From a virus: DNA of 64,000 bases. Both the position numbers and the translations under genes were made by a program. Within the stretch, counting starts at the first letter, position 1, and every line of letters starts with the position of its first letter. Below, one piece after another: positions 27,936 to 42,319 of this stretch. The notes beneath the pieces were generated by a model. The model had not been told where the DNA came from. It was given only the letters and a program-made list of their open reading frames with translations, and made no database searches. The stretch spans positions 1-64,000 of IMG/VR virus record IMGVR_UViG_3300040856_002293; one strand, 5' to 3'.

Positions 27936-28535
27936 ATGAAATTACACAGTTTATTTTTTATTTTAATGTTATCTCTTTTCAGTTGTTCAACTGGGGGAGA
28001 TGTAGACACAACGGAACAGGAAGGAACAGATACAGTAGATACAGTAATTGTAGATGCTCCTACAGGGGGTGTGGTTGATGCTCCTGTTGTTACTGCTCCC
28101 ACGAAAAAAAACAAACCTTTGTTGGTAGAGAAGGATTTGCCTAAATCTCCAGATGGAACTGTCGTTGAGATGACAACCGAAGAAGAAGAGCAACCCTTAG
28201 TAACTGCTCCTATCTTCTTTGACTGTGAAATCAAAAAGAGAGCAAAAGCTCAAATGAGATGTTCTGAGAAATCTTTACAAACTTATGTAGAAGAACACAT
28301 TGAGTTTGTAGGAGAAGAGAAATCAGAACACTATGCTTCTGTTAGAATTGTCATTAGACCAAACGGGTCTACAGGAACAGTAACTGTTCTTGGAACAAGT
28401 GATGAACAATTTGGTGCAGCAGTTGTTAAAACTATTAGAAACTTAAATGTAGATGGTCTTATGTGGACACCAGCTTATAAAGATAGTGTTGCTGTTGCAT
28501 TTGACTACTACACAGAGTTTGAGATTAATTATTAG
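27936..28535 (+). CDS. Lipoprotein with TonB-C-like domain
   Basis: 199 residues. Lipoprotein signal MKLHSLFFILMLSLFSC with lipobox LFSC, a Thr/Val/Pro-rich linker (about residues 22-90), then a C-terminal domain (SVRIVIRPNGSTGTVTVLGTSDEQFGAAV...) like the energy-transducer TonB C-terminal domain of Bacteroidota. It would sit in the periplasm. A phage might use it to engage or block TonB-dependent receptors; that is inferred. Confidence 0.75.
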   Translation: MKLHSLFFILMLSLFSCSTGGDVDTTEQEGTDTVDTVIVDAPTGGVVDAPVVTAPTKKNKPLLVEKDLPKSPDGTVVEMTTEEEEQPLVTAPIFFDCEIKKRAKAQMRCSEKSLQTYVEEHIEFVGEEKSEHYASVRIVIRPNGSTGTVTVLGTSDEQFGAAVVKTIRNLNVDGLMWTPAYKDSVAVAFDYYTEFEINY

Positions 28536-28562
28536 TATTCAATCATTAATTTTTTAATAAAT

Positions 28563-28600
28563 AGGAGACTTACATAAATGTTTGTCTCCTTTTTTTTTTA
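28563..28600 (+). terminator. Intrinsic terminator
   Basis: AGGAGAC pairs with GTCTCCT, followed by T9. Confidence 0.88.
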
Positions 28601-28634: not shown

Positions 28635-28775
28635 ATGTTTATAGAGAGTCCCTATCCAATTATTTTGCTATATACTATCACATTTGTAATTGTAGCTTAC
28701 GGTATAAAATATCACCAGGATGGAGTTACCTTTAAAGATTTATATACCATAATTAAAAACAAAATAAAACAGTAA
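28635..28775 (+). CDS. Single-span membrane protein, 46 residues
   Basis: MFIESPYPIILLYTITF... one hydrophobic segment then a basic tail. The stop shares a base with the ATG of the next gene, so translation is coupled. Confidence 0.65.
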   Translation: MFIESPYPIILLYTITFVIVAYGIKYHQDGVTFKDLYTIIKNKIKQ

Positions 28776-29299
28776 TGAATTTAACAGATTTACTAATAGA
28801 ATCGTTACTATTAGAGTTTAGTGGAGGTGAACCTTATGATTATACACTTAGGGGATTTAAAGATTGTCAATCTGTAAGTAGATATACTTTTGAAATAAAA
28901 GATATTCCTAATACGCATACTTTAACTTATAAAGTAATGTTATCTTATTTAGACTTTTCTGAAAGAAAACGCTTAGGTATTACTTTCAGTACATTAGAAA
29001 AAGGATATGAAGAAATACAAGGTATACCAGTAAGAATTCTTATGAATTTAATGGCTACTATTTCTAAAATAGTAAAAGACCATATAAAGGGTTGTTATAA
29101 TAAAGAGACTTTACCTTTGGAAGCTCTTAGTTTCTATGCTTTAGAAAGTGCAAAAGATGATCCAATGTCAGGAGACCATAATAGAAGAGCTAAATTTTAT
29201 ATTAGAGTTCTTGTACAACAATTAAACATAGACCAATCAAAAATACAAAGAAGAGGATCCGATTATATTATCCCAATAGATTTAGACGATTTTAAATAA
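28775..29299 (+). CDS. Tagged tandem paralogue A
   Basis: 174 residues. Opens MNLTDLLIESLLLEFSGG, a double LLxE tag. The body (PYDYTLRG, ITFSTLEKG, RILMNLMATISKIVKDHIKGC, NRRAKFYIRVLVQQLNI) is shared with the next two genes and with the C-terminal part of 21898-22731. Function unknown. Confidence 0.8.
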   Translation: MNLTDLLIESLLLEFSGGEPYDYTLRGFKDCQSVSRYTFEIKDIPNTHTLTYKVMLSYLDFSERKRLGITFSTLEKGYEEIQGIPVRILMNLMATISKIVKDHIKGCYNKETLPLEALSFYALESAKDDPMSGDHNRRAKFYIRVLVQQLNIDQSKIQRRGSDYIIPIDLDDFK

Positions 29300-29305
29300 A
29301 AAAAA

Positions 29306-29824
29306 ATGATAAAACTAACAGATTTACTATTAGAATCACTTCTCTTAGAATTTAGTAATGGCGATCCTTATGAGTTTACAACATACCATAAAACTTGTGA
29401 AGGTGATAGTAGATATAAATTTCAAATAAAAGATATTCCAAATATAGGTACTTTAACTTATAAAGTAGAATTAGAGTATTATAGGTATAATAAAAGTTTG
29501 GGTATCAGTTTCAGTACAGAAGAATCACATTATTCAGAAATACAAGGTATACCAGTAAGAATTCTTATGAATTTAATGGCTACTATTTCACAAATAGTAA
29601 GAGAACATATAAAGGGTTGTTATAATAAAGAGACTTTACCTCTTGAAAATCTCAGTTTTCTTGCTTTAGGAAGTGCAAAAGATGACCCATCTTCAGAAGA
29701 TCATAATAAAAGAGCTAAATTTTATATTAGAGTTCTTGTACAACAATTAAATATTGATAAGTCGACAATAAAAAGACAAGGAAATAACTATATTATCCCA
29801 ATAGATTTAGACGATTTTAAATAA
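29306..29824 (+). CDS. Tagged tandem paralogue B
   Basis: 172 residues. Opens MIKLTDLLLESLLLEF. Long stretches of its DNA are identical to paralogue A (around the RILMNLMATIS region), so the duplication is recent. Six bases separate the genes. Confidence 0.8.
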   Translation: MIKLTDLLLESLLLEFSNGDPYEFTTYHKTCEGDSRYKFQIKDIPNIGTLTYKVELEYYRYNKSLGISFSTEESHYSEIQGIPVRILMNLMATISQIVREHIKGCYNKETLPLENLSFLALGSAKDDPSSEDHNKRAKFYIRVLVQQLNIDKSTIKRQGNNYIIPIDLDDFK

Positions 29825-29830
29825 AAAAAA

Positions 29831-30358
29831 ATGATAAAACTAACAGATTTACTATTAGAATCCTTACTTTTAGAATTTAGTAATGGTGATCCCTATGATT
29901 ATAAACTTCAGGGACCAAAAGATTGCAAGTATGATACCGAATATACATTTGAAACAGAAGATATTGAAAATGTAGGTATTCTTAATTATATAGTAAGTTT
30001 AAGAAATTATTCATGGACAAAAAGATTAAGCATATCCTTTAGTACAGTAAAAAAAGGGTATGACGATATTGGGAATATACCTACAAGTATATTAAAAAAT
30101 ATTATGGCTACTATAACAGATATAGTAAAAAAACATATATTGTATTGTAATGATTCAGATTCTGATTATAATGTAAAAGAATTAACTTTTACACCATTAT
30201 CAAGTTCAAAAGATTATGCAAGAAATTCTGAACATAATAGAAGAGCAATATTATATATTAGGGTAATAACTCAACAATTAGGAATACCAGCCTCCCAAAT
30301 TAAAAAAGAAGGAGGCTCATACATAGTTCCCATAAATATTGAAGACTTAAGAAAGTAG
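29831..30358 (+). CDS. Tagged tandem paralogue C
   Basis: 175 residues. Same tag as B at protein and nearly at DNA level, but a more diverged body (ILKNIMATITDIVKKHI). Ends SYIVPINIEDLRK. Confidence 0.8.
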   Translation: MIKLTDLLLESLLLEFSNGDPYDYKLQGPKDCKYDTEYTFETEDIENVGILNYIVSLRNYSWTKRLSISFSTVKKGYDDIGNIPTSILKNIMATITDIVKKHILYCNDSDSDYNVKELTFTPLSSSKDYARNSEHNRRAILYIRVITQQLGIPASQIKKEGGSYIVPINIEDLRK

Positions 30359-40056: not shown

Positions 40057-40236
40057 ATGATAAAAGATACATACAAGGGTAATGCTGAAAGTAAACTATT
40101 AGAGATAAAAGATATGATTTCTAATATTGAAAAGAGCATTGATAAGAAACAAATGACTGAAGCTATACTTATAGAAAGATTATCATATCTTAAGAAAGAT
40201 TTAGAAGAAGTAATATTTTTATTGTCATTATGCTAA
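40057..40236 (+). CDS. Small coiled-coil protein, 59 residues
   Basis: MIKDTYKGNAESKLLEIKDM... almost wholly helical and charged. Overlaps the start of the next gene by seven bases. Confidence 0.7.
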   Translation: MIKDTYKGNAESKLLEIKDMISNIEKSIDKKQMTEAILIERLSYLKKDLEEVIFLLSLC

Positions 40237-41321
40237 AAGAAAGATTTGTATTAGTATTAGTAATATTATCTGCATTACTTATATCCGCATCTGCTGCGTT
40301 TTTTTCAGTATACGGATTAAGTAAAGTTTTTGCAGGAGCAGGTATATCTGTAATCATAATGGCTTCAGTATTAGAAGGATCTAAACTGATTGCTGCTTAT
40401 GCTTTGCATCAGAACAAGAAAGTATTTCCACCCTTATTAAGAATTTACTTATCCATTGCTGTAATAGTATTAATGATAATAACCTCAGCTGGTATTTATG
40501 GATTTCTATCAAATGCTTATCAGATTACAGCAAATACTAATACAATAGTTGAAAAAGAAATTGGAATTGTCCAAGCAAAAGTAGATAATCTTTCAGTTAG
40601 ATTGGAAGATTTACAAACTGAAAGAGAATCTATTGTTTCGGATATAACAGAGTTGAGAAATGGATTATCTACAGGTACTACTATTAGTTATATTGATAAA
40701 GAAAGTGGCGAGAGAATTACCACTACATCTTCAGCCACAAGAACTTCTTTAGAAAGACAACTTACTGATGCTATTGAAAGAAGAAACAAATTAGATTTCT
40801 CAATCGAAGATTTATCAACACAAATAGATAGTTTTAAGATAGAAATTCTAACTATGGAAACTGGTAATGATGCTGCAGCTGAACTTGGACCCATTATATA
40901 TCTCAGTAAGATTACTGAAGTTCCTATGGATATTCTTATGAATTATTTTATATTAATGATTATTTTTGTGTTTGACCCTTTAGCAATTACTTTAGTTATT
41001 TCTATAAGTTATTTAATAAACGACATAGCATCAAAGAAAACATCTCCCAAGAAAATTGAGGTGTCTCCTAAACTTTTAGGAGTTTATAAGTCAGACAATC
41101 AGGTTATAGAAGACGAAAAGATTGAAGAGGCTTATAAATCAGTAGTAGAGAAGAGTCCAACAAGAAGGAAGATTAAAAAAACAAATACTAAAAAAAGTAA
41201 TTTAACAACAAGTAGAACTAAGAGAAAACCAAGTACACCAAAGAAACCAATTAGAAATAGAAAACCTACAAACGTTACTGAAGAAAAAAAAAAGACTCAG
41301 CAGAGGACAGTAAAGAAGTAA
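40230..41321 (+). CDS. Membrane protein with coiled coil; 0-frame product
   Basis: 363 residues. Membrane segments at about residues 5-27, 32-50, 68-91 and 232-258; a periplasmic or cytoplasmic coiled coil between residues 100 and 215; a highly basic Lys/Arg/Thr tail. A similar design is frequent in T4-like marine phages. Near its end the gene contains ten A (41284-41293) forming the slippery heptamer A AAA AAG, after which a long -1 frame continues (see 41294-41551). Confidence 0.85.
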   Translation: MLKERFVLVLVILSALLISASAAFFSVYGLSKVFAGAGISVIIMASVLEGSKLIAAYALHQNKKVFPPLLRIYLSIAVIVLMIITSAGIYGFLSNAYQITANTNTIVEKEIGIVQAKVDNLSVRLEDLQTERESIVSDITELRNGLSTGTTISYIDKESGERITTTSSATRTSLERQLTDAIERRNKLDFSIEDLSTQIDSFKIEILTMETGNDAAAELGPIIYLSKITEVPMDILMNYFILMIIFVFDPLAITLVISISYLINDIASKKTSPKKIEVSPKLLGVYKSDNQVIEDEKIEEAYKSVVEKSPTRRKIKKTNTKKSNLTTSRTKRKPSTPKKPIRNRKPTNVTEEKKKTQQRTVKK

Positions 41322-41551
41322 AAAACTATAAAGTATCTGTTATAGAAAAACCTGTTCCAAAATTTCAAATAGTTGACAATGGGAACAAAGTTTTAAGAAA
41401 GGAAAATGTTGAAGAAGTAATCATAGAGCCAATTTATGATGATAGCATAGTTCAGAATCCTAAAGGAGATTATGCTCTTCTAACTCCAGATGAATTTAAT
41501 TCTATGACAGATGATGAAATAAAAAAGTGGTATAAAAATAGTAAACAATAA
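41294..41551 (+). CDS. -1 frameshift extension of the membrane protein
   Basis: 85 codons open in the -1 frame relative to the gene at 40230, beginning directly after the A AAA AAG slip site (KK|DSAEDSKEVKNYKVSVIE...). Protein-like composition (FQIVDNGNKVLRKENVEEVIIEPIYDD) and no ATG until codon 71, so it can only be made by frameshift or transcriptional slippage at the A run, giving a product of about 440 residues. It fills the otherwise unexplained 242-base gap before 41564. Confidence 0.7.
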   Translation, partial: DSAEDSKEVKNYKVSVIEKPVPKFQIVDNGNKVLRKENVEEVIIEPIYDDSIVQNPKGDYALLTPDEFNSMTDDEIKKWYKNSKQ

Positions 41552-41563
41552 AATTAATTAGTT

Positions 41564-42319
41564 ATGGAAAACAAGTCTAAGGAACATTATTTAAAGTTTA
41601 TGGGTTATATTGATGAATATCTACCCGAAAGAGCTGAGTCTTTAAAGGCAATGTATGAAGCATTTGGTAAAAGACTTCTATTAGCACCTGCGAGTGCAGT
41701 AGAGCATTATCATAACGCTTTCCCTGGTGGGTATATTGACCATGTGTTGAGAGTTGTTGATTATGCCCTTAAACTTTATGACTTTTATGAGGAAAATGAA
41801 ATGGATTTGTCAGGTTTCACAAAAGGAAACTTGGTATTCGTAGCATTAAACCACGATTTAGGTAAGTTAGGATATGTTGGTGAAGGAAGAGAGAAATACA
41901 TTCCTAATGATAGTGAGTGGCATAGAAAGAATATGGGTAAGATTTACAATTACAATGATAAAATTCCATTTGCTATAACTTCAGATTTAAGTTTGTACAC
42001 TTTACAAAAATTTGGAGTTCCAGTACAATGGGAAGAATACTTAGGGATAAAGATACACGATGGATTATATGAAGAGGGTAACAAGCCTTACTTCATTTCA
42101 AGGAGTGACAGTTCTTCCCTTAGAACAAATCTTCAATATATTATGCATATTGCGGATTTAATGGCTTCAAAGCACGAGTATAGAACTTGGAAGAATGAGA
42201 AGGAAGGAAAAGTTGTTACTAAACAAAACAACTCTGAAAGTGTTGATAACTCTAATAATAAAGATAAAGAATCTAAAAAAACTTTGGAAGAATTTAAACA
42301 AATGTTTAATCCTTCTTAA
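41564..42319 (+). CDS. HD-domain phosphohydrolase
   Basis: 251 residues. HNAFPGGYIDHVLRVV (first His), LNHDLGKLG (His-Asp pair near residue 98) and later HDGLY and HIADLMASKHE complete an HD metal site. Likely a nucleotide or signalling-nucleotide phosphohydrolase, a family common in T4-like marine phages. The last 40 residues are a polar tail. Confidence 0.88.
   Translation: MENKSKEHYLKFMGYIDEYLPERAESLKAMYEAFGKRLLLAPASAVEHYHNAFPGGYIDHVLRVVDYALKLYDFYEENEMDLSGFTKGNLVFVALNHDLGKLGYVGEGREKYIPNDSEWHRKNMGKIYNYNDKIPFAITSDLSLYTLQKFGVPVQWEEYLGIKIHDGLYEEGNKPYFISRSDSSSLRTNLQYIMHIADLMASKHEYRTWKNEKEGKVVTKQNNSESVDNSNNKDKESKKTLEEFKQMFNPS

Follow-up and report, generated by a model that had tools for sequence, protein, structure and literature searches.

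A gene for a membrane protein in the phage DNA analysed here (a window of 64,000 nucleotides) would encode two proteins from one start, and the recoding that joins its frame 0 to the -1 frame at a run of ten adenines (A10) near its end is strongly supported by the comparison of related sequences. Most copies of the protein would terminate at 41321, with 363 residues, and a fraction would continue in the -1 frame past the run to give a 440-residue form with a cytoplasmic domain of 85 residues. The most likely means, and in our judgement a rather probable one, is transcriptional slippage at the A10 run, although slippage and ribosomal frameshifting could act together. We infer that slippage takes place, that RNA polymerase is responsible for it and that the ratio of the two products has a role.

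Table 1. Features of the recoded gene and its surroundings, by position in the window.
Feature	Position	Strand	Product or reading	Remarks
Window				within a 70.8-kb virus record
Small conserved upstream ORF, MIKDTYKGNAE...	40057..40236	+	59 aa	sequence; L011-L018 have homologues in this position
Membrane-protein ORF (frame 0)	40230..41321	+	363 aa	more than 500 IMG/VR relatives
A10, putative slippage site	41284..41293	+	frame 0: GAA AAA AAA AAG	run length exactly ten in all six lineages (15 contigs)
-1 frame extension	41294..41551	+	85 codons and stop	
Overlap, frame-0 end TQQRTVKK and stop, also read in the -1 frame	41294..41321	+		
Next gene, HD-type phosphohydrolase-like, neighbour outside the fusion	41564..42319	+		phrog_5889 1e-11, phrog_28876 3e-7, weak Pfam HD

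The features that define the gene are collected in Table 1. The 59-residue ORF ends within the membrane gene, with an overlap of 7 nt. The membrane ORF has the extent given in a preliminary description of this DNA, which also claimed that the -1 frame is open for 85 codons up to 41551 without a start codon, that the shifted product has about 440 residues and that the frameshift explains the only large gap in the operon. As observations on the sequence, these were confirmed. In particular, 242 nt separate the membrane ORF from the next ORF, against at most 37 nt for the other gaps in this run of + strand genes, and this single large gap is filled by the -1 tail. Near the end of the gene the DNA reads ACT GAA GAA AAA AAA AAG ACT CAG ... 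AAG AAG TAA, the ten A's and the G on either side of them occupying 41283-41294. From 41282 onwards the -1 frame runs without interruption until its stop codon at 41549-41551; it reads KKKDSAEDSKEVKNYKVSVIEKPVPKFQIVDNGNKVL...MTDDEIKKWYKNSKQ. Its first ATG, GTG or TTG is the Met codon of MTDDEIKK, number 75 in an open stretch of 89 codons and deep within the conserved tail domain. Peptides of the junction and the tail would include FQIVDNGNK and GDYALLTPDEFNSMTDDEIK.

Searches with the membrane protein, with the tail, with the downstream gene and with two independent tail DNA patterns, the second of them taken from the tail C-terminus, all led to the same 14 IMG/VR contigs. Together with the window, these fall into six lineages: the window with 040811; 040959, 040816 and 042020; the 046000 group; 042478; 024502 and 027503; and 013132. 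In 15 of 15 contigs the tail lies in the -1 frame, the tail frame opens at or upstream of the A run, and the run consists of exactly ten A's placed just inside the overlap of the frames. The comparison of the runs was anchored on the reading frames, because plain MAFFT failed to bring them into register in the linker DNA; the linker itself could not be aligned, and near the run but outside it no invariant word exceeds 8 nt. Four lineages read GA10G and two read CA10T or CA10C, and with this difference in the flanks the run is displaced by one codon position. In other words, the length of the run is kept while its flanks and its codon phase change. A separate feature was observed in the relative contig L191 (IMGVR 3300024502_000032), where positions L191:1709-2111 (about 25.5-25.9 kb) hold six repeats of 37-39 nt, GTCAGAGTACGTCTTTGGGTTGGGGAGGGTATCTCAC, at a spacing of 71-76 nt and with differing spacers; they look like a small phage-borne CRISPR-like array and are absent from the window.

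Conservation of both frames in relatives, proposed earlier as a check, was borne out in these 15 contigs and six lineages. Pairwise dN/dS values of the tail lie mostly between 0.09 and 0.35 and most changes fall at third positions, a pattern close to that of the membrane part; on these comparisons, the tail is under purifying selection. The frame-0 residues that follow the run are, by lineage, TQQRTVKK, K, I, TQ, VNSKISK and TKQKLTKQ, conserved neither in length nor in sequence. With an unconserved frame-0 end and a conserved tail, the -1 reading is therefore the one selected beyond the run.

Homopolymers are error-prone, and the open -1 frame might in principle stem from a base gained or lost in error at the A's, or from a recent pseudogene. 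In the wider family, one candidate for such a case was observed: L144 (IMGVR 3300017719_006701) has an A9 at the end of its membrane ORF, and the -1 frame past this run restores the C-terminus of the family, DDLTIKY. This shift, which could be a recent indel, a sequencing error, decay or another slippage site, looks like error or decay. For the window, however, an artefact or decay is very improbable. The same A10 in 14 other contigs excludes a sequencing error at the run, the identical run and frame recur in different samples and divergent lineages, and both ORFs are under selection. Purifying selection on the tail rules out sequencing error and pseudogene alike.

A separate start codon for the downstream frame in relatives had been named beforehand as evidence against recoding, and such codons were found in part. 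Past the frame-0 stop, three of the six lineages have a possible start in the tail frame, namely an ATG at 14 nt (L180 group), an ATG at 11 nt (L189) and a TTG at 11 nt (L182). These codons would allow two separate proteins, the tail being re-initiated after the frame-0 stop. We consider this improbable, as A10 is kept even in the lineages with a possible start, and the other three have none before the conserved domain: the window and L177 lack that segment, with no ATG, GTG or TTG before the domain, and L181 has GCG in place of the ATG of the others and a GTG only at +41. Moreover, the possible starts of L180, L182 and L189 lie at the foot of a hairpin of 11-12 bp, TGCACAATAAA-N9-TTTATTGTGCA, located just past the frame-0 stop and overlapping the ATG or TTG. 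Compensatory changes are not seen in this hairpin, and its pairing is disrupted in L181, whose start codon is gone.

A run of this length is unusual for the coding DNA of this phage. The coding sequence of the window (89 model genes) has 24 runs of A7, 3 of A8, none of A9 and a single A10, the putative slip site. Runs of at least nine A's thus number 1 against 6.0 expected, and synonymous shuffling gave one or none in 0.8% of shuffles; the other coding sequence of the window avoids long A runs. In bacteria, selection against runs of nine A's in coding DNA, as well as their use for slippage, is documented (PMC1088944). The four A9 runs on the + strand of the window are intergenic or lie across a gene boundary. 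If codon choice alone were at work on the encoded amino acids, the probability that all six lineages have a run of at least ten A's would be about 0.002, the lineages being treated as independent. Whole records of five relatives contain no A11, and A10 occurs only at the putative slip site in three of them and twice in two; the second A10 of the L181 genome is intergenic and was discarded as a second recoded gene. In tail-less homologues, A runs near the end of the gene vary from 3 to 9, runs of A7-A9 being frequent in the gene, and one homologue, L134, has an A10 elsewhere in its membrane gene. Two other stretches of the window are of note. At 28550-28600, after an ORF ending at 28535, GGAGAC...GTCTCC is followed by T10 in a terminator-like arrangement, and at 28774-30358 a repeated gene family with A9 leaders is arranged in tandem, its members beginning and ending almost identically (TAGACGATTTTAAATAAAAAAAAATGATAAAACTAACAGATTTACTATTAGAATC).

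Which molecule slips is the point on which the two main explanations differ. Runs of this kind are classical sites of RNA polymerase slippage (PMC1088944, PMC3711429, PMC4256274): Thermus dnaX has 9 A's, nine further dnaX genes have 10 (PMC1088944, PMC3711429), and tssM1 has 11, with about 20% slippage (PMC4256274). According to the proposed mechanism, RNA polymerase would slip on A10 and either add one A (A11) or drop two (A8), and ordinary ribosomes would be carried by these messages into the tail, with computed products of 440 aa from A11 and 439 aa from A8. Transcripts with A9 or A12 would end within a few codons and give forms close to the short one (360-361 aa, computed). The membrane subunits would then be a mixture in which the short and the tailed form occur in a fixed proportion.

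The preliminary description had instead favoured a programmed -1 ribosomal frameshift of the dnaX type at A AAA AAG, whereby tandem lysine tRNAs on the ten-A mRNA would slip from A AAA AAG or A AAA AAA to AAA AAA. This alternative is possible, but we regard it as rather unlikely. The E. coli dnaX site is indeed A AAA AAG (PMC3711429), the lysine codons of the phage are AAA-rich (0.70), the -1 tail is conserved and the slippery heptamer is in register in all six lineages. However, such a heptamer arises automatically in any A10 run, so that its register carries no weight, its G is not conserved, and a 7-nt site needs fewer than ten A's. With A AAA AAA in two lineages, and with an in-register heptamer contained in every A10, the conserved element is, on this comparison, the A10 run and not A AAA AAG. 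Recoding at the A run is well supported, since both reading frames and the run itself are conserved; the heptamer as its site is not.

In addition, the stimulators of a dnaX-type frameshift were not found, neither the upstream Shine-Dalgarno (SD)-like element nor a conserved downstream structure. No conserved SD-like motif occurs in the 30 nt before the run, and within 60 nt downstream there is little or no predicted stem-loop structure in the window, L177, L181 and L189; the hairpin of L180, L182 and L189 is without covariation and lies about 18-40 nt from the run, whereas a stimulator would be expected at 5-10 nt. SD motifs precede only 3 of 67 phage genes, which have A at -12 (0.69) and -3 (0.63), an A-rich upstream pattern that is also that of Flavobacterium (PMC6847099). 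Bacteroidia ribosomes lack SD recognition (PMC9976891), and a dnaX-type SD stimulator is unlikely because the phage genes lack SD motifs and such ribosomes do not use them. With the run always of ten A's, the designation "dnaX type" is not well supported. Some considerations nevertheless weigh against polymerase slippage: lysine-rich linkers in AT-rich genomes readily make A runs, the avoidance of nine or more A's may also reflect replication slippage, and both A AAA AAG and A AAA AAA are good ribosomal slip sites, compatible with a conserved A10.

The membrane part has predicted helices at residues 2-33, 38-61, 68-147, 168-211 and 233-270 (mean pLDDT 73), from which four membrane spans are predicted, with a long coiled coil (residues ~97-211) between TM3 and TM4. 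From the distribution of charge and the positive-inside rule, the coiled coil would be extracytoplasmic and the K-rich C-terminal linker cytoplasmic. Matches to folds in the PDB were only generic coiled coils and were set aside. Outside the tail-bearing clade the membrane protein is widespread, with at least 563 among the first 600 pattern matches, and no recognisable tail was found in these relatives. Large phages share this four-helix coiled-coil family, one example being the protein of Flavobacterium phage immuto, which is 39% identical over 64%. The family has a C-terminal membrane helix, FVFDPLAI, that also occurs in IMG/VR relatives, and, unlike the window gene, it has no -1 tail, on a search of 50,697 phage records. 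By membrane and baseplate proteins, the nearest named phages include immuto but also a Microcystis phage, so that a host may only be inferred from them.

The tail is predicted to form a long beta-hairpin and two short helices, compact and with a pLDDT of ~85 over most of its length. It gave no significant match in PHROGs, Pfam or NCBIfam, no match in 50,697 records of annotated phages, no Foldseek match at E<=0.001 in the PDB or BFVD, and no VIA row with Z>=2. A match in L190, from a search of genome contigs, is a PrsA-like foldase and was dismissed as due to chance. A possible in-frame counterpart of the tail in L099 and L130 shares a weak motif with it (LTPNQIKNMS.., LSPSQMRNMS..; E 0.02-0.04 among ~150 sequences): hhalign gave these endings a probability of 3% against the tail, and a scan with the L130 end returned only near-identical contigs. 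The L130 and L099 endings, LSPSQMRNMSSQAIKEY and LTPNQIKNMSHESIRRY, show a weak and not significant resemblance to YALLTPDEFNSMTDDEIKKWY of the -1 tail.

Both mechanisms are already known, and what is new is the gene and its phage setting. The closest parallels to polymerase slippage in the window gene are dnaX of Thermus thermophilus and Chlorobi and tssM1 of Citrobacter, which likewise have 9-11 sense-strand A's near the end of the gene and give short and long products without need of an RNA structure. Citrobacter tssM1 is also alike in encoding a membrane protein to which slippage adds a C-terminal domain. In contrast, the present gene belongs to a phage, its membrane protein is unrelated and slippage is predicted from sequence; moreover, slippage in Thermus dnaX leads to a shorter product, and here it would lead to a longer one. 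With the E. coli dnaX frameshift the window gene shares the in-register heptamer and the -1 direction, but it has neither an SD stimulator nor a conserved stem-loop, the G of the heptamer is not conserved, the run is longer, and the shift extends the protein instead of truncating it. Lambda gpG/gpGT is another phage gene with a minor -1 fusion and a C-terminal extension, although the product considered here is a multi-span membrane protein and the slip site is different. A tail assembly chaperone of the gpG/gpGT kind was rejected, since the product is a membrane protein without a match to the chaperone family and the gene that follows encodes an HD-like protein instead of a tape measure.

By analogy with tssM1, we infer that the short and the tailed form build one membrane complex, in which tailed subunits make up a fixed share. 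There is about an even chance that a lineage of dsDNA phages with SD-less hosts keeps a ten-A polymerase slippage site as a device for tailing at a fixed ratio. On this reading a fraction of an inner-membrane protein would gain a new cytoplasmic domain, slippage taking the place usually given to ribosomal frameshifting. The gene would also serve as a warning that gene callers miss such tails, here a domain of 85 residues with neither a start codon nor a significant family match in the libraries searched. In annotated phage recoding, 2397 of 2476 joined genes are tail assembly chaperones (PMC10885494). A conserved recoded membrane protein would add a second functional class to phage recoding, and with it phages of SD-less hosts would be shown to make use of poly-A slippage.
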